Origin: Methylobacter luteus IMV-B-3098 | GTDB lineage: Bacteria; Pseudomonadota; Gammaproteobacteria; Methylococcales; Methylomonadaceae | NCBI RefSeq assembly: GCF_000427625.1 | Contig: NZ_KE386569.1 | Span: 1,140,216 to 1,204,215 of the forward strand | Direction: 5' to 3' | Length of the DNA stretch: 64,000 nucleotides | Shown: positions 1-43,886 of the stretch, one piece after another | Layout: the number at the start of each line of letters is the position of its first letter | How positions within the stretch are numbered: the first letter of the stretch is position 1 | Notes under the pieces: generated by a model | Database searches by the model: none | Told to the model about the DNA's origin: nothing | What the model saw: the letters and a program-made list of their open reading frames with translations, nothing else | Position numbers and translations under genes: made by a program

Positions 1-221
1 AAATTCTGCACCGATACACCGGGCAGCAGGTTTAAGGCCGAAGCGACATCGTAGCGGTTGTTGCGCGCTATGTCCTCGGCCGTAATGGTTTCCTTGTCTG
101 AAGGTTGTTCTTGTTCCACTTTTGCGTTAACTTCGATAACGCCTAAATTAAAAACATCGTCGTCGGCGGGTGCTGCCTGGGAGAAGGCCGTTATTGTTAA
201 CAACAAAGGAGAAAAGCGCAT
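1..221 (-). CDS. TonB-dependent outer-membrane receptor, N-terminal part (cut by window edge)
   Basis: Partial gene read leftwards from ATG at 221; about 73 residues are inside the window and the frame stays open to base 1. It begins with a basic/hydrophobic signal peptide (MRFSPLLLTITAFSQAAPA), then a short linker, then the start of a plug domain: ITAEDIARNN followed by ASALNLLPGVSVQN, the typical first strand and helix of TonB receptor plugs. It would import a ligand across the outer membrane using TonB energy. It diverges from modE, and a ModE-type operator lies between the two, so molybdate or a molybdenum chelate is the inferred ligand; the sequence seen does not itself show ligand specificity. 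Confidence 0.8.
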   Translation of the reverse strand, partial: MRFSPLLLTITAFSQAAPADDDVFNLGVIEVNAKVEQEQPSDKETITAEDIARNNRYDVASALNLLPGVSVQN

Positions 222-370
222 TATCTTGCCTGTTAGTGCTGATAGTATATAGCTCGGTTTTACACACGTGCCACAGCCATGAATGGCTTATAATCCCGAG
301 CTTTACTCTCGCTTCGATGCTTATGGTGGTGTAAAACAAGCGTTATTTGTTTAAAGCAGAGCTATTTTAA

Positions 371-398
371 TTCGTTATGTATTTAAGTAAATAACGAA
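371..398. promoter_or_regulatory. Candidate ModE operator (inverted repeat)
   Basis: Perfect 8-bp arms TTCGTTAT (371-378) and ATAACGAA (391-398) separated by 12 bp. The inner 24 bp (373-396) have the layout of the E. coli modA ModE box, CGTTAT at one end and ATAACG at the other. The site is 33 bp before the modE start and 150 bp from the start of the divergent TonB receptor, so it could control both. Inferred from resemblance and position. Confidence 0.6.
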
Positions 399-431
399 AA
401 TTGGCAACAGGCTATTCCTGTTCGGGAAATA

Positions 432-1286
432 ATGTTTCACTCAATTTTTGCGAGGCAACCAAGACTAATGACCAGCGACCCAAACCACGACGATTTTCCG
501 ACCGCCTGGCTCGAGGGCGAATTGCGACTGGCCGGCATACTGGACAGCCGTATGATCGGCTTGCTGAGGGCCATCGATGAAAGCGGCTCCATCAATCAGG
601 CGGCCAAACAGCAGGGGTTGAGCTATAAAGGCGCCTGGCAGATGATAGAGCGCGCCAATAATCTGGCGCCCAAAGTCTTGATTGCCACGGCAACCGGCGG
701 CAGCAAGGGCGGCGGCACGCGCCTGACCGCCGCCGGGCAGGCGCTGCTACAGCTGTTTACCCGGCTGGAGCAACAGCACCGGCAATTCCTGCGGCAACTC
801 AATCAGGGGTTGGCGGATGATCCCGAAATGATGCTGCTTCTTAAGCCGCTGGCGATCAAAACCAGCGCCACTAACCAACTGTTCGGCACCATCACGGCCA
901 TTCAGTCCGGCGCCGTCAATGCCGAAGTATCGGTCGAGTTAAAAGGGGGGGAGCGGATTGTCGCCGATCTGGGTTTGTCAATGCTTGACCGGCTTGAGAT
1001 CAGCGTCGGCAAGGATGTGCTGCTGCTGATCAATGCCCCGGAGATTGGCATTGTGACCGAATTCGATCATCAGCGTCTGTCGGCGCGCAACTGCCTGCAC
1101 GGCGCAGTGATTCGCGTGCAGCGGGACGGCGTCGATGCGCAGGTTGCGCTCCGGCTGCCAGGCGGGGACAGCCTCGTCGCCACAGTCGCCCAGGCCAGCG
1201 TTGAATCCCTGGGGCTGAAATATGACGTGCCGGTCAGTGCCGTGTTTAAGAGCAATGCCGTGATGCTTGCCGTGGGGGATGCCTGA
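432..1286 (+). CDS. modE: ModE-family molybdate-responsive transcriptional regulator
   Basis: 284 residues, close to the 262 of E. coli ModE. Residues about 25-115 form the LysR-like winged helix-turn-helix (DESGSINQAAKQQGLSYKGAW is the helix-turn-helix region, followed by GGGTRLTAAG). Residues about 135-205 and 210-284 are two tandem molybdate-binding Mop/TOBE domains; they carry TSATNQLFGTI and SARNCLHGAV, the paired ligand-pocket motifs. Known ModE dimers bind DNA when loaded with molybdate and repress molybdate uptake genes or activate molybdoenzyme genes. ATG at 468 is an alternative start, leaving a more usual N-terminus. A candidate ModE site lies directly upstream, suggesting autoregulation and control of the divergent receptor. 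No modABC transporter genes are in the window. Confidence 0.9.
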   Translation: MFHSIFARQPRLMTSDPNHDDFPTAWLEGELRLAGILDSRMIGLLRAIDESGSINQAAKQQGLSYKGAWQMIERANNLAPKVLIATATGGSKGGGTRLTAAGQALLQLFTRLEQQHRQFLRQLNQGLADDPEMMLLLKPLAIKTSATNQLFGTITAIQSGAVNAEVSVELKGGERIVADLGLSMLDRLEISVGKDVLLLINAPEIGIVTEFDHQRLSARNCLHGAVIRVQRDGVDAQVALRLPGGDSLVATVAQASVESLGLKYDVPVSAVFKSNAVMLAVGDA

Positions 1287-1359
1287 AGAGTCTCGGTCAC
1301 CGGCGCAATAACAAACTTGCCTGCAACCTTGATGGCGAATCTGGCGTCATGGATTTACG

Positions 1360-1953
1360 CTACCAGGATCTGAAACGGCCTGTGTCAAGATGTACGAAAT
1401 TGAGGTGTCTATAATACCCGACCCCGCCACGGTGCAGTGCCAGCGCGGCGTTTCTGATCTTTCGCGTATCCAGTCCTTTCACGTGCAGATCGATAGCCCG
1501 GCCTTGCATGTGCAGACTGTGTTTTGCAGCGCCGCACCGGCACCTTTTACGCAATCGGGCATTGGTGCGCGGGGAGCGGTAACCTGAGGAACAATAGAAA
1601 GGCCGATTGATGCCAAGCATGATTTTCAGGTCATACAACTGATCCAGCAAGGCCGGATCTATAGGATGAACCGCGTCGTTATGGTAATCACGCAGCAGAT
1701 AATTGATTTCCCGCAGGGCACCTTCAATATAATGGCCCTGTTCAAAGTAGGTCAGCTTTAGCTTGTCACCGGTATGTATATGCTCAAGGGCGAGCGTTTT
1801 GTGCGAAGGGTTCACTTTGCCTGCTGCATTTGCGATCTCTGTCTCACTCAGTGTCAACAAAGAACTGCATGCCATCATCCTCAGAAATCTGCGCCTTGAT
1901 GCTATAAAACTGCCTGCATCAATTTCCTGGCTTGTCGATAGATACTGGTTCAC
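1360..1953 (-). CDS. YcbK/MepK-like DUF882 peptidase, Tat-exported
   Basis: 197 residues. The N-terminus has SRRRFLRMM followed by a hydrophobic stretch, a twin-arginine signal. The rest matches the DUF882/peptidase M15 fold: CSSGYRSPRTNARLR in the middle, then KHSLHMQGRAIDLHV, giving the zinc ligands His and Asp of the SxHxxGxAxD motif, and HLNFVHLDTGRFRSW at the C-terminus with the third ligand region. The family includes E. coli MepK (YcbK), a murein endopeptidase that cleaves meso-DAP-meso-DAP cross-links in the periplasm. It is convergent with modE, and no partner gene is beside it. The family call is firm; exact cleavage specificity is inferred from the homologue. Confidence 0.85.
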   Translation of the reverse strand: MNQYLSTSQEIDAGSFIASRRRFLRMMACSSLLTLSETEIANAAGKVNPSHKTLALEHIHTGDKLKLTYFEQGHYIEGALREINYLLRDYHNDAVHPIDPALLDQLYDLKIMLGINRPFYCSSGYRSPRTNARLRKRCRCGAAKHSLHMQGRAIDLHVKGLDTRKIRNAALALHRGGVGYYRHLNFVHLDTGRFRSW

Positions 1954-2311
1954 GTTTTATTTTTTAAATACAACGGATAGTTCTATTTGCTAAGCCTTTG
2001 ACTAGCGGATATTAAATAGATCCTGAATAAACATTCACATGGCTATTTCCATGATATTTGTCATTAAGCGGTCAAATATTTGATGACCGTAACATCAGCT
2101 AAAAAACCAGGGCGAAGCCACTTAATCCGGGAGATGGCGACTGTAAGACACCAGCGGTACGGGGTTTGCAACCGCGTTCCCAACGTTTCTGCGGTATCCG
2201 GGCCCGGTGGCGCATTTGACCAATGCCAAACATCCCGGACGGGGCAACATGCCCCGTCCGGCTGATGGGGACTTCATGGATCGTCATGCGCGGGCAGGTG
2301 CCCTGGGTAAA
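1954..2311. other. Intergenic region between YcbK-like gene and RND operon
   Basis: 358 bp without a convincing gene. About 2100-2160 resembles the middle of a cobalamin riboswitch (GAAGCC, AATCCGGG, CGACTGTAAG in order) but no B12 box was found and no downstream plus-strand gene exists. The right part holds the strong hairpin listed separately. Confidence 0.5.
2235..2261. repeat. GC-rich hairpin downstream of RND operon
   Basis: 11-bp perfect stem (2235-2245 with 2251-2261) around loop AACAT, about 50 bp beyond the stop codon of the last gene of the minus-strand RND operon. There is no U-run, so it looks more like a REP-type palindrome or mRNA 3' stabiliser than a Rho-independent terminator. 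A relative with the same ACAACATG-type loop occurs at 24091-24120. Confidence 0.55.
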
Positions 2312-5300
2312 TCAGCTCCGCCGGCGGGGCAGGGAAGCTTCGGCCGCATCACGGCCAAAACGGCGTCGGCACCACAACTGGAAGCGGTCCAGATAGAGAT
2401 ATACCACCGGCGTCGTGTAAAGCGTCAGCATCTGGCTGACGATCAGCCCGCCGACGATGGAAATGCCCAGCGGCTGGCGCAATTCGGCGCCGTAGCCGGT
2501 TCCGAAAGCCAGCGGCAGAGCGCCCAGCAGGGCCGCCATGGTCGTCATCATGATGGGCCGAAAGCGCATGAGACAAGCCGTGAAGATGGCGTCGTGCGAG
2601 TTCAGTCCTTCGTTGCGTTCGGCATCGAGCGCGAAGTCAATCATCATGATGGCGTTCTTTTTTACCAGGCCGATCAGCAAAATCACGCCGATCAGGGCGA
2701 TGATGCTGAATTCGGTCCCGAAAGCGAGCAGGGCGAGAAGCGCGCCGACGCCGGCTGACGGCAGCGTTGACAGGATCGTCAGCGGATGAATATAGCTCTC
2801 ATACAGCACGCCCAGCACGATATAAATCGTGGCCAGCGCGGCCAGGATCAGCCAGGGCTGGTTGCGCAGGGATTGCGCGAAGGCCTTGGCCGTGCCCTGA
2901 AAGCTGCCGTGTATCGAATCGGGCACGCCCAGTTGATTCATCGTTTCCTCGATAGCTTGCGTAGCCGTCGACAGCGAGGCTCCGCCCTTGAGATTGAACG
3001 ACAGCGTGGCCGCGGCAAACTGGCCCTGATGGTTGACGGTCAGCGGCGCACTGGTCAGATCGTAGCTGGCGAACGCCGACAGCGGCACCTGCCTGCCGGC
3101 CGGCAATTCCGGGTTGGGCGGAACGCTGACGTACAGTTTATCCAGCGTGTCCGGATGCTGCCAGTATTCGGGCGCCGCTTCCATCACAACGTGATACTGG
3201 TTGAGGGGCGTATAGATGACCGAAACCTGGCGCTGGCCGAAAGCGTCATTCAGGGTCGAATCGATCAGCGCCTGCGTGACGCCCAGCCGCGAGGCCGCGT
3301 CGCGGTCCACGTTCAGGAAAACCTGCCGGCCTCCTTCCTGCTGATCGGTATTGACGTCCGCCAGTTCCGGACGTTGCGACAGCGCTTTCAAAATCCGCGG
3401 CGTCCAGGTGTGAAGGTCTTCGAGATTTTCGGCCTGCAGCGTGTATTCGAACATGGCCGCTGCGCCGCGCGCGCCGACCCGCAGATCCTGGACCGGCTGC
3501 AGGAACAGGCTGGCTCCCGGTTCCTTGGCGAGTCTGGCGCGCAGGCGCTGCATGATCTGCTCGGCTGTCAGCTCGCGTTCCGTAATCGGCTTGAGGGTAA
3601 CGAACATGAACCCGGTATTGCTGCCGCTGGTGAACCCGACCACATTTTCAACATCCGGCTCCTTGCGCACGATCTCGGAAAAATCGGTCAGTTTCTGCTG
3701 CATGGCGGCCGATGAAATGCCTTCATCGGCCCGAAGGGCGCCGGCCAGCCGGCCGGAGTCCTGCACCGGAAAGAAGCCCTTGGGCACGATGATGTAGAGA
3801 TAGACATTCAGGATGATCGCGCCCAGCAACAGCACCATCATCAGCGGCCCATGGTCCAGCGCCCAGCGCAGCGTCCGTTCGTAGCCGGCGAGCAGGCGGT
3901 CGAACTGCCGTTCGCTCCAGTGATAGAGCCTGCCGTGCCGCCGGTCCTCGGCGCGGGCCAGCCAGCGGGAGCAGAGCATCGGGGCCGTGGTCAGCGAGGC
4001 CACCAGCGAAATCATGACCGCCGCCGAGAGCGTGGCCGCGAACTCCCGGAACAGACGGCCGACGATACCGCCCATCAGCAGGATGGGAATGAACACGGCG
4101 ATCAGCGACAGGCTCATGGACAATACCGTGAAACCGACCTCGCCGGCGCCTTTGATGGCGGCCTGAAATGGCGGCAGGCCTTTTTCGATGTGGCGCGTGG
4201 TGTTTTCCAGCACCACGATGGCGTCATCGACCACGAAGCCCGTGGCGATGGTCAGCGCCATCAGGGACAGGTTGTTCAGACTGTAGCCGGCCAGATACAT
4301 GACCCCGAAAGTGCCAATCAGCGACAGCGGCACGGTAATGGACGGAATCAGGGCCGAACGCAGGTTGCGCAGAAACAGGAACACGACCAGAACCACCAGC
4401 CCCATGGAGATCCAGAGCGTCGTTTCCACCTCATGCAGCGATGCGCGGATGGTGCCGGCCCGGTCCATGGGCACCGACAGGTCGATGGACTGCGGAATGG
4501 AAGCCCGAAGCTGGGGCAGCATGGCCCTTACCTTGTCCACTGTCGCGATGATGTTGGCTTCAGGCTGCTTTCTCAGTATCAGAATCACGGACGGCTTGCC
4601 ATTGCTGATGCCGGCGTTGCGCAAGTCCTCCACGGAATCGACGGTCTGGCCGATATCGGCGATGCGCACGGGGGCGCCGTTGCGATAGGCGACGATGAGC
4701 GGCAGGTAATCGCCGGCCTCGCTGACCTGGTCATTGGCATAGAGCTGCCAGTGCCGGCTGTCGTCCGCGACGGAGCCCTTGGGCCGGTTGGCATTGGTGG
4801 TGGCGATCGCGGAGCGGACATCCTCGAAGCCGATCCCGTACTTTGCCATCGTGTCAGGGTTGAGCTCCACCCGGACCGCCGGCAGCGAGCTGCCGCCGAC
4901 GTCCACCTGGCCGATGCCCGGAATCTGTGAAATTTTCTGCGCCAGAATGGTCGAAGCCGCATCGTAAAGCTGGCCGCGGGTCTGGGTTGCCGAGGTCAGG
5001 GCGATGATCATGATCGGCGCATCGGCCGGGTTGACCTTGCGATAGCTGGGGCGGGTCGGCAGGTTCGTGGGCAAGAGGCTGCTGGCCGCATTGATCGCGG
5101 CCTGCACATCCCGAGCCGCGCCATTGATGTCCCGGTCGAGATCGAACTGCAGGTTGATGCGCGTGGAGCCCGTGGAACTCGTCGATGTCATTTCGTTGAT
5201 GCCTGCGATCCGGCCGAGAGAACGCTCGAGCGGCGTGGCCACCGTGGCGGCCATGGTCTCGGGGCTGGCGCCGGGCAGCGCGGCCCGCACGGAAATGGCC

Positions 5301-21586: not shown

Positions 21587-23806
21587 TCATTCGGGCTTGC
21601 CTGCGTTTTTCTGAAGTTTCTCCGCATTCCGCAATTCATGTTGCAATTGTTCCGGCAGAGCCGCCAGGCCCGCACAGGGTTTTGGCCCATCCAGCACTTT
21701 GAGCAGAGCGGCCGCCAAGCCAAAATCGGGATCATTGTCCTCGGCGTTATCGAGGCTGCGTCTTGCAATGCCCGCGGCAATTGAAACATCCGAACAAGCC
21801 AGTTCGATCAGCTTCGGGTGCAGCACGTTGGTACGATAAGCGCTCAGTTGCGCCGGATCATCGTATTCGCATTTCAATAAGGCTCGATTATCGCTGTAGC
21901 AGGCTTTTCGGCTGGCCGCTTTGCCTGGTGACAGGCCGGTGTCGGCGCGCTTCATACGTGCCTCGAAGGCGCTGAATTTTTCAGCGTCCAGCAACTGTTT
22001 GAGCGCCGCTTCCAGCTTGCGCTGCTGCTGATCGTCCCAATCCGACCACGAACTGCCTGCGATAAATAGGCCGTCGAGATTGGCATCCGTCCACTCGCTC
22101 CCCTGAAGCTGTGCCTCAAGCAATTTTGCGCCCTGCAGTTCCCCCGAGGTCAAGTCCGCGCCCTGCAAATCGGCGTAGACCAGGTTCGCGCCTTGCAAAT
22201 TCGCCTTGCGCAGGTTTGCGCCCTGCAGTTTCACCCCGCGTAGGTCCGTACCCTGAAGATCAGCTCCGCGCAGATCCACAGCCTGCAGATTCGCACCGCG
22301 CAGATCCGCGCTCCGCAGGCTTGCCCAGCTCAGGTCCGCGCCCTGAAGATCGGCTCCGCGCAGATCCGCTCCCTGCAGATCCGCCTCGATCAAGCCCGCG
22401 CCCTGGAGCTGCGTCCCGCCCAGGATGGCGCCCTGAAGTTGCGTCTTGTCCCAGCCGATCACGCCCTGGAGTTTCGCTTTCAGCAGGATCGCGCCCTGCA
22501 ACTGGACATGCCGGATATCGGCCTTGGGCAGCATGGCCCCGAAGAGATTGGCAAAGCGCAGATCGCGATTCTGTAAATTAAGCCCGTCGAATTCCTTGAA
22601 GGCCGCGTCGCGAATCTGTTTGTTCGGGTCTGTTGCACGCGTCAGCAGAGACAGGGAAACCTCTTTCGGTACGAGCCGGGCTTCTCTAAGGTTCAGGTTG
22701 CGCGTAAAAAGATCCAGATTGAACCAGGAGCAGGGACCAAGCACTACCTGAAGAATAGAAGCATCGGTCTTTTCAGCCTGTGCCAGTGAAGTGCAGGAAA
22801 CAGCATCATATTTATGGGCGGCAACGCTCAGCCATGACTCGGGCATTCTTCGGATCAGCCAGTCTTCTAAATAAAAAGGAGTATCCTCAGGCGAGTCATT
22901 CCGGGACTTGTCATTCGCCGGAGAGTAATAAGTCTGCACGGTAATGCTGCCGGGGACCACCGCGACAATGCTGATCAGAACCACTAACGGCACCGAGATC
23001 AGTAATACAACCATGCCCTTGGGTTCAGTTCCGGTCTGCTGCATGGACGGAGGGACGATTTCACGAAAGTGCCGGTTCGGCCAATGGCGCTGAATCAAGC
23101 GCGCCAGTCGGTTCCATCCGATGATAGTTAAATATCGAATCCATGCAGGCCAATAACCCACCAGCCTGAAAGCAAAGCTTTGCCACCATTCCCGCGCCCT
23201 GTCCTCGGGCGAGGCGATGAGCGGCCACAAGGCGAGCAGCATGGCTGCATCGGTCCACACCGAGAGGCGTTGAGACCAGGTGATGGCTTCGTCGTGAAAC
23301 GGCAGAAAGCGAATCTGCGCCGCCAGCAACATAAACAAGGGCAGGGCAATGATCGTAATGCCGACTATCAGGGACAGCAGCCAGCGGATCAGCCAGACAT
23401 CGGAGCGCCCTACAATGAGATGCGTGAAAGGGAAGATGAACAGGCGATCGCGTATTTGTTGCCCGGTTGGCGTGGCGGGCAGGTCGCGGTCCAGATTCCA
23501 GAGCTTGTTGGAGAGCAGTTCCAATTGCATGAGCAGGTTAAAATGCAGCAGGACCACCATCCACGGCGCGAAGGCGTAAAAGGTGGTCAGCGGCAATTCC
23601 ACATCCAGAATCGGCAGTTTGACCGGGCTGATGCGAAGCAGGTCTTCGTGCGTGGTGCCCCAGACGATGATGCCGAGATAGGCGGCAAACGCGATGAATG
23701 CGATATGAAGAGCTGACACCGACTGCGATGCGGAGTTGGCCGCTTCCAGCAGTTTTTCGATATGCGGAGAGGTTTCTTGTCTGGGTGGCAATGCAGGGCT
23801 GGACAT
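21587..23806 (-). CDS. Membrane protein with pentapeptide-repeat domain
   Basis: 739 residues in three parts. About 35-290 is a membrane region with four to five helices (ALHIAFIAFAAYLGIIVWG; FAPWMVVLLHFNLLMQL; WLLSLIVGITIIALPLFMLL; MVVLLISVPLVVLISIVAVV). About 415-605 is a long pentapeptide-repeat block of A(D/N)LxG type (LQGADLRGADLQGADL and so on), which folds as a right-handed beta-helix. About 610-739 is a charged C-terminal region with a few cysteines. Large pentapeptide-repeat membrane proteins of this kind occur in many proteobacteria without assigned function. The neighbouring genes give no clue. The repeats account for the DNA-level repetitiveness at 22110-22500. Confidence 0.75.
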   Translation of the reverse strand: MSSPALPPRQETSPHIEKLLEAANSASQSVSALHIAFIAFAAYLGIIVWGTTHEDLLRISPVKLPILDVELPLTTFYAFAPWMVVLLHFNLLMQLELLSNKLWNLDRDLPATPTGQQIRDRLFIFPFTHLIVGRSDVWLIRWLLSLIVGITIIALPLFMLLAAQIRFLPFHDEAITWSQRLSVWTDAAMLLALWPLIASPEDRAREWWQSFAFRLVGYWPAWIRYLTIIGWNRLARLIQRHWPNRHFREIVPPSMQQTGTEPKGMVVLLISVPLVVLISIVAVVPGSITVQTYYSPANDKSRNDSPEDTPFYLEDWLIRRMPESWLSVAAHKYDAVSCTSLAQAEKTDASILQVVLGPCSWFNLDLFTRNLNLREARLVPKEVSLSLLTRATDPNKQIRDAAFKEFDGLNLQNRDLRFANLFGAMLPKADIRHVQLQGAILLKAKLQGVIGWDKTQLQGAILGGTQLQGAGLIEADLQGADLRGADLQGADLSWASLRSADLRGANLQAVDLRGADLQGTDLRGVKLQGANLRKANLQGANLVYADLQGADLTSGELQGAKLLEAQLQGSEWTDANLDGLFIAGSSWSDWDDQQQRKLEAALKQLLDAEKFSAFEARMKRADTGLSPGKAASRKACYSDNRALLKCEYDDPAQLSAYRTNVLHPKLIELACSDVSIAAGIARRSLDNAEDNDPDFGLAAALLKVLDGPKPCAGLAALPEQLQHELRNAEKLQKNAGKPE

Positions 23807-23987: not shown

Positions 23988-24120
23988 TGTAGGTGCGAAT
24001 TTATTCGCACTGTGCGAATAAATTCGCACCTACATGTCCATGCCGGCACGCCGGCATTGTCTCGGGTCGAATGAATTCGACCCTACAGCTGGCGGGACGG
24101 GACAACATGCCCGTCCCGCC
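23988..24120. repeat. Cluster of four back-to-back palindromes (REP-like)
   Basis: Four palindromes within 133 bp: 23988-24034 (22-bp perfect arms starting TGTAGGTGCGAATTTATTCG, 3-bp spacer); 24040-24057 (ATGCCGGC arms, spacer AC); 24064-24083 (GGGTCGAAT arms, spacer GA); 24091-24120 (GGCGGGACGGG arms). The third recurs at 43922-43941 and, with a longer loop, at 47510-47545; the fourth resembles the hairpin at 2235-2261. The cluster fills the end-to-start gap 23807-24146 between two minus-strand genes. Confidence 0.7.
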
Positions 24121-24146: not shown

Positions 24147-25697
24147 CTACAACTGGCGCATGAAAGCAACCAGATCCTGCTTCTCCTGGGACTCAAGTTT
24201 AAGCTGCAATACGAGATTAAAAAACTCCACCGTATCTTCAAGCGTAAGCGCCCGGCCATCATGCAGATAAGGCGGGCTATCCTTGAGGCCGCGTAAGGTG
24301 AAAGTCTTCATCGGGCCGTCGCCGGGCTCGTCTTTCAAAAAGCGTTCAAGATGCAGATCGTGCATCTGGTGGTCAAGATAGGCCGGCGGGGTATGGCAGT
24401 TGCTGCACTGGCCCTTGCCGAAGAAAATCTTCTCGCCATTCAATTCATTCTCGGTCGCCTTGGCGGGATCAAGCCGGCCAGTCGCAGGGTTAAGCTTGGG
24501 CGCGGGAGGAAAATCGAGCATATTCTGCAACTGCGCCATGTGGCTGACATGGATGCGGTCGAGGATCGGGAAGCCTTTTTTCATGGCGTGGATCGGATCG
24601 CCGTTGAAGTAGGCGGTGCGGAACTCGAACTCGGTGAAATCCTCGACCGAGCGCAAACTGCGCTTGGAACCGTGGATCTGCTGGTTGAACATTCCCCGAA
24701 GGCTCGTGGTATCCAGCCGGAAGCGCCGCTCCTGTGGCCGATCGTCCGGGTTCAGGTGAAACTGCCCTGTGGTGTGGCCGTTGACATGGCAATCGAAGCA
24801 GGTGACGCCGAGGCTGGGCTGGACGCTCTTGCGGTCATCGGTCGGATTGAATTCCTCCTGCGGAAACGGCGTTAGCAGAAACTGCAGCCCGTTGAGCTGA
24901 ACGGGGGTCAGGATGTCCTTGAACAATCGGTAGAAATTATTGATCGACACCACCTCCCCGCGCGATACATCACCCAGCTCGGGCCGGTTGTGCAGGAAAA
25001 TAGCGGGTGGAAACTCGGGCAGAAACGCCTCGGGCAGGTCAAATTCCACATCGAAGCGCTCGAGCCGCGGAAACATCTTGATCTGCATCTTGGGGAAAAC
25101 CTGTCCGCCATTGGACTGCAACGGATGCGGCAGCGAAGGGTAGGGAAAAACTCCGCGCTCCTTGATTTCATCAGGTTCCAGCGACGCCAGCTCATCCCAG
25201 CTCATATCGTCGGCCAGTCTGGCGGTAGGTCCCACTACCAGGGGCTTGCCCCGCGACATCTTGGCCTCCGGGTCAAACTTTGGCTTGAGATTATACCGGC
25301 GCTCCAGCAATTCTTTCTGGGCCGACATCACAGCCGCTTTATTATCAATCTCCTTCTGCATGATAGCCGTAGGTTCCTGGAACGGCTTGTCGGCGTTCAG
25401 CGGATCCCTGTAGAAATCGAAGCCTGAGATTTTGCCTTGCTTCGGTTGTTCCTTGAAAACTGACGAGGAGGGGTTGGCCTTGGTCGCATTGAAAATATCC
25501 GAGTGGTCATGCTGGCTTTTCTTCTGCTCGGCGCGCTCGATGGGCACTTCTTCCGGTGTTTGCGCAGCAGCAACAGCATCTTTGCGCGTGGCGGCGTCCT
25601 GAGCCAGGGCAAGCGTGAACCAACTGCCTAGAAATGCGCCTATGAAGAGTCTGCCGCAGTTAACAAAGGTCACATGCAGTGAGCGGTTCGATACCAT
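24147..25697 (-). CDS. Di-haem cytochrome c peroxidase/MauG-family protein
   Basis: 516 residues with an N-terminal signal peptide (FIGAFLGSWFTLALAQ), so periplasmic or surface-exposed. Two c-type haem motifs are seen: C300-FD-C303-H304 (TCFDCHVNGH) and C431-SN-C434-H435 (QCSNCHTPP), the spacing expected of the di-haem peroxidase superfamily. The C-terminal TFTLRGLKDSPPYLHDGRALTLEDTVEFFN is the conserved TxxLRxxxxxxPYxHDG block. Members reduce peroxide with electrons from small cytochromes, or act MauG-like on protein substrates; methanotrophs have surface-associated members. An N-terminal extension of roughly 150 residues, rich in charged residues, is longer than in classical CcpA peroxidases. 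No partner gene is adjacent. Confidence 0.82.
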   Translation of the reverse strand: MVSNRSLHVTFVNCGRLFIGAFLGSWFTLALAQDAATRKDAVAAAQTPEEVPIERAEQKKSQHDHSDIFNATKANPSSSVFKEQPKQGKISGFDFYRDPLNADKPFQEPTAIMQKEIDNKAAVMSAQKELLERRYNLKPKFDPEAKMSRGKPLVVGPTARLADDMSWDELASLEPDEIKERGVFPYPSLPHPLQSNGGQVFPKMQIKMFPRLERFDVEFDLPEAFLPEFPPAIFLHNRPELGDVSRGEVVSINNFYRLFKDILTPVQLNGLQFLLTPFPQEEFNPTDDRKSVQPSLGVTCFDCHVNGHTTGQFHLNPDDRPQERRFRLDTTSLRGMFNQQIHGSKRSLRSVEDFTEFEFRTAYFNGDPIHAMKKGFPILDRIHVSHMAQLQNMLDFPPAPKLNPATGRLDPAKATENELNGEKIFFGKGQCSNCHTPPAYLDHQMHDLHLERFLKDEPGDGPMKTFTLRGLKDSPPYLHDGRALTLEDTVEFFNLVLQLKLESQEKQDLVAFMRQL

Positions 25698-33517: not shown

Positions 33518-33534
33518 GGGAGAATGTATGTGCA

Positions 33535-33932
33535 TCAACTTAATCCAGGGGAAGCTGATGGTCACTATCGAAATCGACGGCGTGAAGTATGCAGGGGCGA
33601 ATTCATTCGCCCAGGGCGACTTAAGTCGCCCCACAAGCGAATCCAGGAGAAGCTGATGGTCACTATCGAAATCGACGGCGTGCAATACCAGGCGGAAGCC
33701 GGTGAAAGCCTGCTGCCAGTCTGCCTCGCCCTGGGCCTGGATCTGACCTATTTTTGCTGGCATCCGTCCCTGGGTTCGGTAGGCGCGTGCCGGCAGTGCG
33801 CGGTGATGCAGTACCAAAGCCCGGAAGACAAAAAAGGACGTCTCGCCATGGCCTGCATGACCCCCGTGACCGACGGCATGCGCATTTCCCTTCAGGCCGA
33901 GCAGGCCAGGCAATTCCGCAGCGACAACATCG
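33535..33932 (+). repeat. 398-bp tandem duplication at nuoG 5' end, copy 1
   Basis: From TCAACTTAATCCAGG to GCGACAACATCG, followed directly by an apparently identical second unit. The unit length is not a multiple of three. Each unit contains two copies of the nuoG start region (AAGCTGATGGTCACTATCGA), separated by a palindromic insert (33573-33632: arms GGGCGAAT/ATTCGCCC, then the perfect palindrome GGGCGACTTAAGTCGCCC). Confidence 0.9.
33558..33656 (+). CDS. Short nuoG-start fragment with palindrome insert
   Basis: 32 residues: the first 9-10 residues of NuoG (MVTIEIDGVKY) followed by translated palindrome sequence (AGANSFAQGDLSRPTSESRRS). Its TGA overlaps the next ATG at 33656 as TGATG. Probably a by-product of the insertion rather than a functional protein, but it keeps ribosomes moving through the junction. 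The same fragment recurs at 33956-34054. Confidence 0.35.
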   Translation: MVTIEIDGVKYAGANSFAQGDLSRPTSESRRS

Positions 33933-34054
33933 TCAACTTAATCCAGGGGAAGCTGATGGTCACTATCGAAATCGACGGCGTGAAGTATGCAGGGGCGAAT
34001 TCATTCGCCCAGGGCGACTTAAGTCGCCCCACAAGCGAATCCAGGAGAAGCTGA
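33656..34054 (+). CDS. Truncated NuoG: free-standing N-terminal [2Fe-2S] module
   Basis: 132 residues. The first 92 are identical to NuoG residues 1-92 and include all four N1b ligands, Cys34, Cys45, Cys48 and Cys67 (TYFC...GACRQCAV...MACMTP). After the duplication junction the frame shifts into the repeated start region and ends with 40 foreign residues. The ribosome site CCAGGAGAAG is the same as that of intact nuoG. Its TGA overlaps the intact nuoG ATG (TGATG), so translation is likely coupled. A folded ferredoxin-like product is possible; alternatively this is simply a broken copy or an assembly artefact. Confidence 0.6.
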   Translation: MVTIEIDGVQYQAEAGESLLPVCLALGLDLTYFCWHPSLGSVGACRQCAVMQYQSPEDKKGRLAMACMTPVTDGMRISLQAEQARQFRSDNIVNLIQGKLMVTIEIDGVKYAGANSFAQGDLSRPTSESRRS

Positions 34055-34330
34055 TGGTCACTATCGAAATCGACGGCGTGCAATACCAGGCGGAAGCCGG
34101 TGAAAGCCTGCTGCCAGTCTGCCTCGCCCTGGGCCTGGATCTGACCTATTTTTGCTGGCATCCGTCCCTGGGTTCGGTAGGCGCGTGCCGGCAGTGCGCG
34201 GTGATGCAGTACCAAAGCCCGGAAGACAAAAAAGGACGTCTCGCCATGGCCTGCATGACCCCCGTGACCGACGGCATGCGCATTTCCCTTCAGGCCGAGC
34301 AGGCCAGGCAATTCCGCAGCGACAACATCG
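33933..34330 (+). repeat. 398-bp tandem duplication at nuoG 5' end, copy 2
   Basis: Second unit, continuous with intact nuoG from 34054. By reading line against line, no difference from copy 1 was found. Identity implies a recent duplication, ongoing recombination, or an assembly error. Confidence 0.9.
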
Positions 34331-36723: not shown

Positions 36724-37673
36724 ATACCGGGCTTGGCGGTGCCATGGACATTATCGGCATCCTGCTGTCGACGATTCTCGTGGCGGCGATGCTGATCTGG
36801 GTGGAGCGCCGGCTGCTGGCCGTCTGGCAGGACCGCCTCGGACCCAACCGGGTCGGTCCCTTGGGGCTGTTTCAGGTCGCGGCGGACATGATCAAGATGT
36901 TCTTCAAGGAGGACTGGATTCCGCCTTTTGCCGACAAACTCGTGTTCGTGCTGGCGCCCACGATCGTGTTCATTACCATGCTGACCGGTTTTGCCGTGAT
37001 TCCGTTTGCGCCGGGCGTCGGCATTATCGATTTCAATTTCGGGCTGCTTTATTTTCTGGCGCTGACGTCCCTGTCCGTCTACAGCGTTGTGCTGGCGGGC
37101 TATGCCTCGAACAACAAATACTCGATGCTGGGCGGCTTGCGCGCCGCGGCCCAGACCGTCAGCTACGAGGTGTTCATGGGCATTTCCATCATGGGCGTGG
37201 TCATGCTGTCCGGCACCTTCAATCTGCGCGGGATCGTCGAGGCCCAGCGCGACGGCTGGTTCATCCTGCCCCAGTTCGCGGGTTTCGTCGTGTTTCTGGT
37301 CGCGTCCGTGGCCGAAAGCCGCCGGGCGCCGTTCGATCTGCCCGAAGCCGAGCAGGAGTTGATAGCAGGCTTTCATACCGAGTATTCGGGCATGAAATTC
37401 GGCATGTTTTTCGTCGGCGAGTATCTCGGCATTACCCTGACTTCCGCCATGATCGTGACCTTGTTTTTCGGCGGCTGGCTGGGGCCTTGGCTGCCGCCGC
37501 TGGTCTGGTTCTGCCTGAAAACCACTGTCGGCATCCTGTTTTTTATTCTGTTGCGCGGATCGCTGCCCCGGCCGCGCTATGACCAGCTCATGAGCTTCGG
37601 CTGGAAAGCCATGCTGCCGGTGGCATTGCTGAACCTGCTCATTACCGGCGCCGTGGCGCTTTATGGCACATAA
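36720..37673 (+). CDS. nuoH: NADH-quinone oxidoreductase subunit H
   Basis: 317 residues starting [14 protein letters not shown] at ATG 36720, which overlaps the nuoG stop. Eight membrane helices. Conserved [40 protein letters not shown], a quinone-cavity loop, and [31 protein letters not shown], the acidic loop at the quinone entrance. It anchors the peripheral arm and lines the quinone channel. Confidence 0.94.
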
Positions 37674-37683
37674 GGGAGAGATC

Positions 37684-38199
37684 ATGCTGAGTCAATTACG
37701 CACATTATGGGAAGTTCTGAAACATACCTTCACCAAACCCGACACGATCGAATATCCCGAGCAGAAGCGGGAATTGTATCCGCGCTACCGGGGGCGCATC
37801 GTGCTGACGCGCGATCCGGACGGCGAGGAGCGTTGCGTGGCCTGCAATCTGTGCGCCGTTGCCTGTCCCGTGGACTGCATCGCGCTGCAGAAAGCCGAAG
37901 ACGAAAACGGGCGCTGGTATCCGGCCTTTTTCCGCATCAATTTTTCCCGCTGCATTATGTGCGGCTTTTGCGAGGAAGCCTGCCCGACCTGTGCGATTCA
38001 ACTGACGCCGGACTTCGAGATGTGTGAATACGACCGCCAGAACATGGTTTATGAAAAGGAGCATCTTCTGATCGACGGCACGGGCAAGTACCACGATTAC
38101 AATTTTTACCGCGTGGCCGGCATGACGGTCGGCGGCAAGGACAAGGGCCAGGCCGAAAACGAGGCGCCGCCCGTCGACGTTAAAACGCTGTTGCCATAA
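37684..38199 (+). CDS. nuoI: NADH-quinone oxidoreductase subunit I (two [4Fe-4S] clusters)
   Basis: 171 residues from ATG 37684 ([16 protein letters not shown]), with AAGGGAGAG before it; ATG 37663 lies inside nuoH and has no site. Two ferredoxin motifs, [15 protein letters not shown] and [14 protein letters not shown], bind clusters N6a and N6b, which pass electrons to N2 in NuoB. The N-terminal amphipathic helix fits membrane contact. 10 bp after nuoH. Confidence 0.94.
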
Positions 38200-38210
38200 G
38201 GAGTATTGAT

Positions 38211-38720
38211 ATGGAATTGGTACTGTTCTTTATCTCATCGGCGGTCGCCGTCTTCGCGACGGTCATGATGATCACGCGCGTGAATGCCGTGCATGGCCTG
38301 CTTTATCTGATTCTGTCGCTGCTGGCCGTGGGCGTCCTGTTTTTCCTGCTGGGCGCGCATTTCGCCGCCGTGCTGGAAGTGATCATTTATGCCGGCGCCA
38401 TCATGGTCATGTTCGTCTTCGTGATCATGATGCTCAATCAGGGCGAGAAAACCACGGAGCAGGAGCGCGCCTGGCTGACGCCGGGCATCTGGACAGGCCC
38501 CTCGGTGCTGGCGCTGATTCTGTTCGCGGAAGTCGTGGTCGTGATTGCTGAAGGCGGCAGCGCCGGAACCGGGCAACTGGTGGATTCCAAGCAGGTCGGG
38601 ATCGCCTTGTACGGCCCTTATCTGCTGGCTGTGGAACTGGCGTCGATGCTGCTGCTCGCGGGGCTGGTCGGCGCCTATCATCTCGGCAAGCCCATGATGG
38701 CTAAAAGGAGGGATGTATGA
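38211..38720 (+). CDS. nuoJ: NADH-quinone oxidoreductase subunit J
   Basis: 169 residues with five membrane helices. [63 protein letters not shown] is the conserved NuoJ core, with the pi-bulge helix TM3. It is part of the proton-coupling membrane arm. AAGGAG precedes ATG 38211, and the stop overlaps nuoK as ATGA. Confidence 0.94.
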
Positions 38721-39025
38721 ACGGAATCCCGATGGCGTATGGTTTGTCGTTGTCCGCCGTGCTGTTTGCGCTGGGACTGGTCGGCGTGCTGGTGCGGCGC
38801 AATCTGATTTTCATGCTGATGTCGCTGGAAATCATGTTCAACGCGGCGGGGCTTGCTTTCGTCGTGGCCGGGTCGCGCTGGGGACAGGCGGACGGGCAGA
38901 TCATGTTTCTGCTGATTCTGACGCTGGCCGCCGCGGAAGTCGGCGTCGGCCTGGGATTGGTCATGCAGGTTTTTCACCGGTTCCAGACATTGGATGCGGA
39001 TGCGGTGGATGAGATGAAAGGGTAG
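38717..39025 (+). CDS. nuoK: NADH-quinone oxidoreductase subunit K
   Basis: 102 residues, three membrane helices. [40 protein letters not shown] carries the conserved glutamate of TM2 (SLEIMFNA), and [18 protein letters not shown] the second (AAAEVGVGL); both belong to the half-channel proton path between NuoJ and NuoN. Start overlaps nuoJ. A 124-bp gap with a palindromic repeat follows. Confidence 0.94.
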
Positions 39026-40976: not shown

Positions 40977-42460
40977 TGCTGCTGGCGCTGATTGCGGTTT
41001 TGTTTGTTGGCGGGCTGGCGGCTCTTGTCGCCGGGCGCTGGAGTCCTGCCGCTCCGCGCTGGACCGCCTTGGCGGCATTGGCGGTTGAGTTTGTGCTGGT
41101 GCTGTCTCAGTATGCGCTGACCGCCGATAATTCATCGGTCTGGATAGCCGATCTGAAGTGGCCCTGGATTTCCCGTTTCGGCATCGGTTTTCATCTGGCG
41201 ATGGACGGGGTTAGCCTGACGCTGGTCATGCTGACCGTTCTGCTCGGTTTCATGGCGGTCAGTTGCTCCTGGACCGAGATCAAACAGCGGCCGGGTTTCT
41301 TTTACTTCAATTTGCTGATGTGTCTGGCCGGGACCGTGGGCGTTTTCCTGGCGCTGGACCTGTTCCTGTTTTTTTTCAGTTGGGAGGTCATGATCATCCC
41401 GATGTATTTTCTGATCAGCATCTGGGGGCACGAAGACCGCACCGCGGCGGCCATCAAGTTTGTGATTTTCACGCAGGTGAGCGGCCTGCTGATGCTGCTG
41501 GCCATCGTAGTCCTGGCGCTGATTTATCGCGGCGAAACCGGCACTTACAGTTTTGATTATTTTGACCTGCTGGGCATGCCGCTCGATGCGGATGCGGCAT
41601 TCTGGCTGATGCTGGGCTTTTTTATCGCCTTTACGGTCAAGCTGCCGTCGGTGCCGTTCCATACCTGGCTGCCGGATGCGCATACGCAGGCGCCGACCGG
41701 CGGCAGCGTCATTCTGGCCGGCGTCATGCTGAAAACCGGCGCTTACGGCCTGCTGCGCTTTGTCATACCGCTGTTCCCCGAGGCGGCGCATCAGTTTGCG
41801 CCGGTCGCCATGTCGCTGGGCGTCATCAGCGTGCTTTACGCGGCCATGATGGCGTTCGCCCAATCCGATCTGAAACGGTTGATCGCCTATACCAGCATCA
41901 GCCATATGGGTTTTGTGCTGCTGGGCGTGTTTTCCTGGAATCTGCTGGCGTTGCAGGGGGCGGTCATGACCATGCTGGCGCACGGCATCAGCGCCGCGGC
42001 CCTGTTCATGATCGCCGGCGCCTTGCAGGAACGCCTGCATACGCGCGAGATGGGCAACATGGGCGGGCTTTGGGCGGCGGTGCCGCGCCTGTCGGCCATG
42101 GCCCTGTTTTTTGCTATCGCTTCGCTGGGTCTGCCGGGGCTGGGCAATTTTCTGGGCGAGTTTCTGGTATTTCTGGGGGCTTTCAAGGTCAGCATGACGT
42201 TGACAGCGCTGGCGGCGCTGGTCATGATCCTGGCTCCGGTCTATGCCCTGATCATCATACAGAAAGCCTTCCATGGTCCGTTGCCGCATCCGCGCCCTGT
42301 AGTCGATTTCGGCCGCCGGGACATGATCGCCATGGGACTGCTGGTGATCGCCAGCGTCTGGCTGGGGCTGCATCCGCATCGGGTGCTGAGCGGGACGGAG
42401 CCGTCGTTGCAGCAGGCCATGCAAAGTTCTGCCGTTATGGAATCGACCGATGAACAGTAG
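40973..42460 (+). CDS. nuoM: NADH-quinone oxidoreductase subunit M (antiporter-like)
   Basis: 495 residues, about fourteen helices. FFFSWEVMIIPMYFLISIWGHEDRTAAAIKFVIFTQ (TM5 glutamate), VKLPSVPFHTWLPDAHTQAPTGGSVILAGVMLKTGAYGLLRFV (TM7-8, lysines) and AYTSISHMGFVLLGVFSWN identify NuoM, the second proton-pumping subunit. It overlaps nuoL by 4 bp and nuoN by 11 bp. Confidence 0.94.
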   Translation: MMLLALIAVLFVGGLAALVAGRWSPAAPRWTALAALAVEFVLVLSQYALTADNSSVWIADLKWPWISRFGIGFHLAMDGVSLTLVMLTVLLGFMAVSCSWTEIKQRPGFFYFNLLMCLAGTVGVFLALDLFLFFFSWEVMIIPMYFLISIWGHEDRTAAAIKFVIFTQVSGLLMLLAIVVLALIYRGETGTYSFDYFDLLGMPLDADAAFWLMLGFFIAFTVKLPSVPFHTWLPDAHTQAPTGGSVILAGVMLKTGAYGLLRFVIPLFPEAAHQFAPVAMSLGVISVLYAAMMAFAQSDLKRLIAYTSISHMGFVLLGVFSWNLLALQGAVMTMLAHGISAAALFMIAGALQERLHTREMGNMGGLWAAVPRLSAMALFFAIASLGLPGLGNFLGEFLVFLGAFKVSMTLTALAALVMILAPVYALIIIQKAFHGPLPHPRPVVDFGRRDMIAMGLLVIASVWLGLHPHRVLSGTEPSLQQAMQSSAVMESTDEQ

Positions 42461-43886
42461 CCAATTGATCGCTTTTTCGCCCGTCATCTGCGTCGCCGCC
42501 TCGGCGGTCATCGTCATGCTGATTATCGCCGTCAGGCGCCATTTCGCGCTGGCCTGCCTCATGGCCGGACTCGGCATTCTGGTTTCCCTGCTGGCGTTGA
42601 CGGCGGCGGGGCGGCAGGGGAGCGTTCAGGTGACGGCTCTTACCCGGATGGATGCCTACGGGCTCTTTGCCATGGCATTGCTGTTGCTGTCAGGGTTGGC
42701 CGTCATTGCCTTTTGTTATGATTATTTCAAGGATCACGAAGGAGAAAACGAGGAACTGCTGTTTCTGATACTGACAGCGCTCCTGGGTGGCTCCGTGCTG
42801 GTGACGGCGAGCCATTTCGCCACATTTTTCATCGGTCTGGAAACGCTCAGCGTGTCTTTGTTCGTGCTGGTCGGTTATGTGCCGGGGCAATCGCGATCGC
42901 TGGAAGCGGCGACCAAATACCTGGTTTTGTCGGGCGTATCGTCCGCGTTATTGCTGATGGGCATGGCGCTGATCTATTCGGAATGCGGACAGCTCAACTT
43001 CAGCGGCATTGAACAGTATCTGGCCAGTCAGGAGCTATTTAATGCCATGGTACTGATAGGCATTGTTTTTATCGTGGCCGGGGTGGGATTCAAGCTGTCG
43101 CTGGTGCCGTTTCATCTGTGGACGCCCGATGTCTATGAAGGCGCGCCGGCGCCGGTCACGGCCTTTATCGCCACGGTCTCGAAAGGCGCTGTTTTCATGC
43201 TGTTGCTGCGCTTTTTTCTCGACAGCGGCAGCTATTCCTATGCTTCAGTGCTGACTGTTTTCACGGTCATGGCCGTTCTGTCCATTCTGTTCGGCAATGT
43301 GCTGGCGCTGCTGCAAGATAACGTCAAGCGCATGCTGGCCTATTCATCCATCGCGCACATGGGCTACCTGCTGATTGCTTTCATTGCCGGAAGCAGCATA
43401 GCGCCGAACCTCGTCATCGAATCCGTGACTTTTTATCTGGCCGCTTATTTCATCACCACGCTGGGCGCTTTCGGCGTCGTGTCGATCCTGTCCACGCCGC
43501 AGGCAGAGGCGGTGGAACTGTCGAGCTATCGCGGGCTTTTCTGGCGCCGGCCGGGGCTGGCGGCAGTCTTCACGCTCATGCTGCTGTCGCTGGCCGGCAT
43601 TCCGCTGACGGCCGGCTTCATCGGCAAATTCTATCTTTTCGCCGCTGGCGTCGATGCCCAACTGTGGGGACTGTTGCTGATGCTGATTATCGGCAGCGGC
43701 CTGGGGCTTTATTACTACCTGAGAGTCATCGTGGTCATGTCGATAAGCCAGGCAGCGGACAGCCATGCCGGCCCCGTGGCGGCTTTGGGACGAATGTCCT
43801 CTGCGACGCTGGTCTTGTTGACGGTGCTGCTGGTCTGGCTGGGTGTTGATCCCATACATCTGATGAGTTTGATTCAGGGGTTGTAA
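42450..43886 (+). CDS. nuoN: NADH-quinone oxidoreductase subunit N (antiporter-like)
   Basis: 478 residues, about fourteen helices. HFATFFIGLETLSVSLFVLVGY (TM5 glutamate), GFKLSLVPFHLWTPDVYEGAPAPVTAFIATVSKGAVFMLLLRF (TM7-8) and AYSSIAHMGYLLIAFIAGSS mark NuoN, the antiporter-like subunit nearest the peripheral arm. Last gene of the nuo operon. No classical terminator follows; a 20-bp palindrome lies at 43922-43941. Confidence 0.94.
   Translation: MNSSQLIAFSPVICVAASAVIVMLIIAVRRHFALACLMAGLGILVSLLALTAAGRQGSVQVTALTRMDAYGLFAMALLLLSGLAVIAFCYDYFKDHEGENEELLFLILTALLGGSVLVTASHFATFFIGLETLSVSLFVLVGYVPGQSRSLEAATKYLVLSGVSSALLLMGMALIYSECGQLNFSGIEQYLASQELFNAMVLIGIVFIVAGVGFKLSLVPFHLWTPDVYEGAPAPVTAFIATVSKGAVFMLLLRFFLDSGSYSYASVLTVFTVMAVLSILFGNVLALLQDNVKRMLAYSSIAHMGYLLIAFIAGSSIAPNLVIESVTFYLAAYFITTLGAFGVVSILSTPQAEAVELSSYRGLFWRRPGLAAVFTLMLLSLAGIPLTAGFIGKFYLFAAGVDAQLWGLLLMLIIGSGLGLYYYLRVIVVMSISQAADSHAGPVAALGRMSSATLVLLTVLLVWLGVDPIHLMSLIQGL

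Follow-up and report, generated by a model that had tools for sequence, protein, structure and literature searches.

In bacteria, partial tandem gene duplications can arise by illegitimate recombination. The locus described here resembles them in that part of a gene, nuoG, is copied head to tail, one intact copy is kept and the junction has no exact homology. It differs in that the copied part brings its own start codon and ribosome-binding site and so forms a separate ORF, of 132 aa, inside an operon. A second comparison is with short proteins resembling the NuoG N-terminus, which we take to be those called HoxU-type. Like the 132-aa ORF, these match NuoG from its start, and the same genome holds one such 240-aa open frame (C1:3012605-3013207; 29% identical to NuoG residues 3-207, from near the NuoG start). 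That frame extends beyond the N1b domain, whereas the 132-aa ORF leaves NuoG at residue 92.

Two classes of palindromic repeats are also related to the locus. REPs have been described inside genes and at N-termini (PMC3733652). The palindrome at nuoG resembles GTAG-tagged REPs and REPINs with a RAYT: it is short and dispersed. Most of the copies listed have GTAG before the stem, and one RAYT-like gene of the genome lies between sister palindromes (L160). It differs from them in its flanking 48-bp duplication, which saves the start codon, and in reading GCAG for GTAG. Rickettsia palindromic elements are described in a review as palindromic repeats that are inserted in genes and translated (PMC10969869). 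As translated, gene-borne palindromes, their analogue in our data is a nuoG repeat in another genus, g25, and not the palindrome studied here, where the shift of 98 nt is no multiple of three and the insert lies outside the working NuoG. Among the matches listed in a search of largely open-access literature titles, we found no tandem duplication at the nuoG start and no palindromic repeats at methanotroph nuoG. The nuoG change given in PMC5913237 is D264G, a point mutation.

A 398-bp tandem repeat between nuoF and nuoG

The genome comprises 5.03 Mb in four contigs, and the window, which is the whole 64,000-nucleotide stretch of DNA that was analysed, is part of contig C1. It carries a nuo operon on the + strand. 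Pfam families were matched by nuoA, B, CD, E, F, H, J, L and M (9 of the 10 proteins scanned) and likewise by nuoG. The nuoI frame (37663-38199) had no Pfam match at 1e-10 and was named by reading, as were nuoK (38717-39025) and nuoN (42450-43886), by reading only. All nuo genes besides nuoG are open frames, and nuoG itself has a single full-length match in the genome. Among named NuoG sequences the best matches were from Methylobacter (68-71%), in a comparison that perhaps did not include the window's own record. Over the first 200 codons, nuoG differs from that of the genus-mate G003 by a dN of 0.024 and a dS of 0.36, and is thus under purifying selection.

Two units of 398 bp lie head to tail between nuoF and nuoG, and the second runs into the intact nuoG (Table 1). 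They are 100% identical, with 0 differences, so that the exact duplication announced by the first-pass annotation is present in the assembly. The repeat is bounded on both sides by a mismatch: the left flank has A against G at the unit end, and the unit start has T against A in the right flank. The junction between the units is blunt (ACATCG/TCAACTT), without exact microhomology to either edge, and the edges have an imperfect CATC(G)AACT in common and nothing more.

Table 1. Features of the nuoF/nuoG boundary, in window coordinates
Feature	Position	Strand	Remarks
nuoF, 431 aa	32222..33517	+	stop 40 nt before ATG 33558, spacing as nuoF-nuoG in G003
Leader ORF, 42 codons (alternative start 33558: 32 codons)	33528..33656	+	TGA overlaps ATG 33656
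Tandem unit 1, 398 bp	33535..33932	+	identical to 33933-34330
Left 48-bp nuoG-start copy, unit 1	33542..33589	+	AGGGG, ATG 33558; putative ancestral place; apparently drifted, VKY for VQY
REP-like insert, unit 1	33590..33639	+	two hairpins; GTAG-like palindrome, dispersed in genome
Right 48-bp nuoG-start copy, unit 1	33640..33687	+	AGGAG, ATG 33656; VQY codons as in relatives
132-aa ORF	33656..34054	+	complete N1b [2Fe-2S] domain within NuoG residues 1-92; 40-aa tail from next unit
Tandem unit 2, 398 bp	33933..34330	+	identical to unit 1
Left start copy, unit 2	33940..33987	+	ATG 33956, in frame with 33656; position = unit 1 + 398
REP-like insert, unit 2	33988..34037	+	copy of unit 1 insert
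Right start copy, unit 2	34038..34085	+	AGGAG, ATG 34054; presumed working nuoG start
Intact nuoG, 889 aa	34054..36723	+	Pfam match; dN 0.024, dS 0.36 vs G003

To look for comparable repeats, we scanned the window together with 20 stretches of 20 kb from this genome, in all 464,000 bases, for periods of 20-4999. Apart from the 398-bp repeat, these 464,000 bases had a single exact tandem array of 60 bp or more, with a period of 51 (L176). The same bases contained no further exact tandem duplication of around 398 bp and no further exact direct repeat of at least 100 bp within 5 kb.

The palindrome and the order of the two steps

In each unit two 48-bp copies of the nuoG start enclose a 50-bp palindromic insert, and the nuoG codons up to residue 92 follow. 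The palindrome sits at codon 11 of nuoG. A duplicated start around the palindrome had been predicted at about 45 bp; the duplication is indeed there, with a size of 48 bp and 3 mismatches between the left and right copies in place of an exact 45 bp. The core of the insert, 43 nt long, forms two hairpins with a folding energy of -25 kcal/mol, where shuffled sequences average -10.5 (z -6.3). Because the palindrome lies between two copies of the nuoG start, the start codon and ribosome-binding site survived, and this joint duplication would explain why a palindrome is tolerated in an operon gene.

Allowing up to 3 mismatches, the sequence GGGGCGAATTCATTCGCCC was matched in the genome 79 times forward and 82 times in reverse, and its reversed control 1 and 0 times. 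One hairpin can score on both strands, and the sister types GGTGCGAAT and GGGTCGAAT account for many of these matches. At least six copies of GGGGCGAATTCATTCGCCC are exact, two of them at nuoG, and these occupy far fewer places than the pattern matches. TGTAGGGGCGA, with GTAG before the stem, was present in 9 of 13 rows among the matches listed, two places being shown twice. The nuoG copy reads TGCAGGGGCGA, with GCAG where most of the listed copies have GTAG. The palindrome fits the GTAG class of REPs, a family placement by shape alone since the main text of PMC3733652 contains neither 'Methylo' nor 'GGGGCGA'.

Fourteen Y1_Tnp matches were found in the genome, of which we examined 10 loci. One, L160, had sister-type palindromes on both sides, the other nine had none of five palindrome patterns, and exact GGGGCGAATTCATTCGCCC was absent from all 10 of the 14. 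L160 (G000:C1:2209700) is a 148-residue RAYT-like Y1_Tnp frame with GGTGCGAAT/GGGTCGAAT palindromes at 1242, 1304 and 1923, and its Y1_Tnp may drive the dispersal of the repeats. Comparing two Y1_Tnp loci with plasmids gave partial matches, mostly to IS200/IS605-type or other transposase genes, none of which covered 80% of the query.

Long flanking direct repeats are not a habit of the palindrome: among 47 rows of repeat copies, some of which are one and the same place, only four had them, the two at nuoG and two more in which the flanks are other palindromic repeats. The 48-bp flanking duplication is thus untypical of this repeat. Survival bias is a natural reading of it, since nuoG would have been disrupted by an insertion in codon 11 that brought no second start. 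Elsewhere in the genome, at L041 (G000:C1:3178958), a repeat copy lies between two copies of another palindromic repeat of the GGTATGCGGTGCATACC type. The window itself contains a palindrome cluster of the same wider family at 23992-24083 (types A-C, up to 2 mismatches), between ORFs 21587-23806 and 24147-25697. The first of these, a - strand ORF, carries tandem repeats of 15, 30 and 90 bp at 22128-22498 and is pentapeptide-repeat-like by eye.

The genus is represented by four genomes, including the window's own. In the three genus-mates (G001, G002 and G003) a single nuoG start follows nuoF, with neither palindrome nor duplication. The distance from the nuoF stop to the nuoG start is 40 nt in G003, as it is to ATG 33558 in the window, and 45 nt in G002. 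In G001 the two genes overlap, the nuoF stop running into the nuoG ATG as TGATG. At the family level, 24 of 151 genomes had a NuoG match at 1e-12 (the other 127 had none at this limit). Of these 24, 23 contained one N1b copy and the window's genome alone contained two. The 111 other nuoG rows likewise had one N1b match each.

The likely explanation is that the 5' end of nuoG was rearranged in two near-neutral steps, with the palindrome first and the 398-bp duplication later. The first-pass annotation had proposed such a history, and both the relatives and the differences between copies support it. We infer the order and relative age of the steps from how the sequences relate to each other. In the older step, a GTAG-like REP palindrome would have entered codon 11 between two 48-bp start copies, doubling the ribosome-binding site, the start codon and the first ten codons of nuoG. 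The right copy would still have driven nuoG, and the left copy, staying where the ancestral start lay, would have become a short leader ORF. The left start is assigned to the ancestral place because of its 40-nt distance from the nuoF stop, as in G003, and the left copy would be the one that drifted, given that the right copy keeps the VQY codons of the relatives. This drifted state is common to both 398-bp units.

In the second, very recent step, the 398-bp segment from the leader to nuoG codon 92 would have been duplicated head to tail with a blunt junction. Unit 2 would then drive the intact NuoG, and unit 1 would give the 132-aa fragment from an identical start context. With 3 differing sites between the 48-bp copies and none between the 398-bp units, the palindrome insertion appears older than the tandem duplication. 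Assuming free drift, zero differences in 398 bp and a dS of 0.36 would place the second step within about the last 2% of the time since the G003 split, a bound that is looser if the copies are constrained or gene-converted. The second duplication is most likely young, unstable and near-neutral, a local and probably transient state. The stretch should be able to revert to one unit without harm to nuoG. We may be looking at a gene start that is being rebuilt, whose tandem unit should be free to collapse or grow. Expansion and contraction of the unit number, as suggested earlier, is plausible, but the nuoG loci examined provided no instance, the N1b copy number never exceeding one at the others.

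An alternative is that the cell has no second unit and that a chimeric read or mis-join, in the library or the assembly, was added to a genuine older palindrome insertion. The perfect identity of the units, their occurrence in one genome and their absence from the other 23 of 24 matching family genomes would agree with such an artefact, as would the stable hairpins, which can disturb sequencing. However, the junction has no exact homology (A versus G on the left, T versus A on the right), and the same assembly has no like-sized exact tandem duplication elsewhere in the 464 kb. False joins by an assembler need an overlap and this junction has none, so that some read, genuine or perhaps chimeric, should contain the junction. 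We consider an artefact unlikely and prefer the two-step rearrangement.

Overlapping reading frames and the N1b fragment

Since start 33956 is in frame with 33656, the 132-aa ORF crosses the second leader, and the chain consists of three ORFs. Both short ORFs had been described as ending in TGATG on the next start (33656 and 34054), and both stops are indeed TGA over the following ATG, that of the 132-aa ORF overlapping ATG 34054. The two starts share 121 identical nt upstream, 277 identical nt from the A onward and the same AGGAG. Given these identical contexts, the fragment may be produced at a rate similar to that of NuoG, if NuoG is made, unless translation of the upstream ORF matters.

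We asked how common such overlaps are at this gene boundary. A one-base overlap of the nuoF stop and the nuoG start was computed in 15 of 92 rows (L013 and L063 being the same place), and an ATG stood at the computed place in 14 of them, seven as TGATG and seven as TAATG. The other 78 of the 92 rows had no such overlap with an ATG. The computed nuoG start was no start codon in L014, L015, L103 and L113, the last of which is one of the 15 overlap rows. Among the genus-mates, G001 has the overlap with ATG and G002 and G003 do not; G002 has TGATG at nuoG without a nuoF overlap, and G003 has no TGATG at the nuoG start.

Since the overlap occurs in relatives, the TGATG in the window is probably a trace of an inherited nuoF-stop/nuoG-start overlap and not a product of the duplication, although its absence from the nuoG start of G003 and the 78 rows without overlap run counter to this. 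An inherited TGATG combined with offsets of 98 and 398, each 2 mod 3, would yield the stops of the chain, and a purpose-built reinitiation device was therefore set aside. The suggested chain of reinitiation into full-length nuoG is possible, but it is not needed, as AGGRG is present before each start and the overlap is probably inherited.

The product of the 132-aa ORF matches Fer2_4 (PF13510) over residues 1-81 (E 2.9e-19). Cys34, 45, 48 and 67 are all present and were invariant in 25 aligned sequences. The earlier description of a 132-residue protein with the complete N1b domain in its first 92 residues, including these four cluster cysteines, was therefore correct. The fragment does not contain the PF10588 region of NuoG. 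A structure model built with 25 sequences had a mean pLDDT of 72 and a pTM of 0.62. The core was confident, with mean pLDDT values of 86-93 in blocks of residues 1-30 and 51-90, and the cluster loop (35-43) and the tail (113-132) fell below 50, in a program that places no cluster.

With a complete Fer2_4 domain, all four cysteines, confident core parts and the same start context as nuoG, the 132-aa protein might be a working free [2Fe-2S] ferredoxin-like protein that, for example, aids assembly, carries electrons or tunes complex I by competition. This is very unlikely. The copies have zero divergence and hence no trace of selection, the cluster loop and tail are modelled with the low confidence given above (no cluster being placed), and the PF10588 region is absent, as is a second N1b copy in the 111 other nuoG rows and the 23 other matching family genomes. 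The fragment is probably a by-product, for which we infer a lack of function. If it is made, it represents a natural test of the effect of a free N1b domain on complex I. A short NuoG-like gene annotated at 33656-34054 would be a duplication product, not a new subunit.

Palindromic repeats at nuoG in genus g25

A palindromic repeat at the nuoG start was also present in family f4 of the same order, in all six g25 genomes found among 38 family genomes searched (L187-L192; G027, G050, G051, G039, G052 and G053, respectively). NuoG in these genomes starts with MPD, followed by in-frame 72-bp palindromic units (24 residues, KIVxNDFxxPKAGPxDGxQGxSPH) and then the usual IEIDG. The number of units is 1 in G051, about 1.6 in G039, 2 in G050 and G053, 3 in G052 and about 5.6 in G027, and the N-terminal extensions are 27, 42, 51, 51, 75 or 138 residues long. 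The nuoG ATG is ATGCCTGA behind GGAGG in six of six genomes, and none of the six has an alternative in-frame ATG, GTG or TTG before IEIDG or IDIDG. By reading, the TGA at the nuoG ATG is the nuoF stop in G027 and G039. The hairpin pattern had 0 to 4 further matches elsewhere in the same genomes.

The g25 repeat differs from the palindrome of the window though it lies at the same gene boundary, and its copy number varies between species. This parallel may be more interesting than the duplication in the window. It could mean that palindromic repeats in the order land and expand time and again at the boundary of nuoF and nuoG, where unit number may tune complex I; we regard this as quite doubtful.

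Similarly, the 398-bp unit could be a length-variable switch, in which gain or loss of units alters the amount of NuoG through the number of hairpins and upstream ORFs. Each unit has the hairpin pair described above (z -6.3), the leader ORFs overlap the following start, and g25 has 1 to about 6 palindromic units at the same gene start in different species. On the other hand, the window's genome shows a single copy number, each nuoG start has its own AGGAG, and the g25 repeat, being in frame, belongs to NuoG itself, which is a different arrangement. Such a switch has little chance of being real. Chance origin of the repeat is ruled out by exact identity over 398 bp, and a decayed second complex I by the single full nuoG, which is conserved.

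A search for known RNA elements at the site gave one match, which was far below the gathering score. Outside of the genomes described above, a similar palindromic stretch was seen by eye in a Chromatiales MAG (L074), upstream of about position 1735 in the nuoF-nuoG spacer, where the gap is 342 nt and is open in the nuoG frame.
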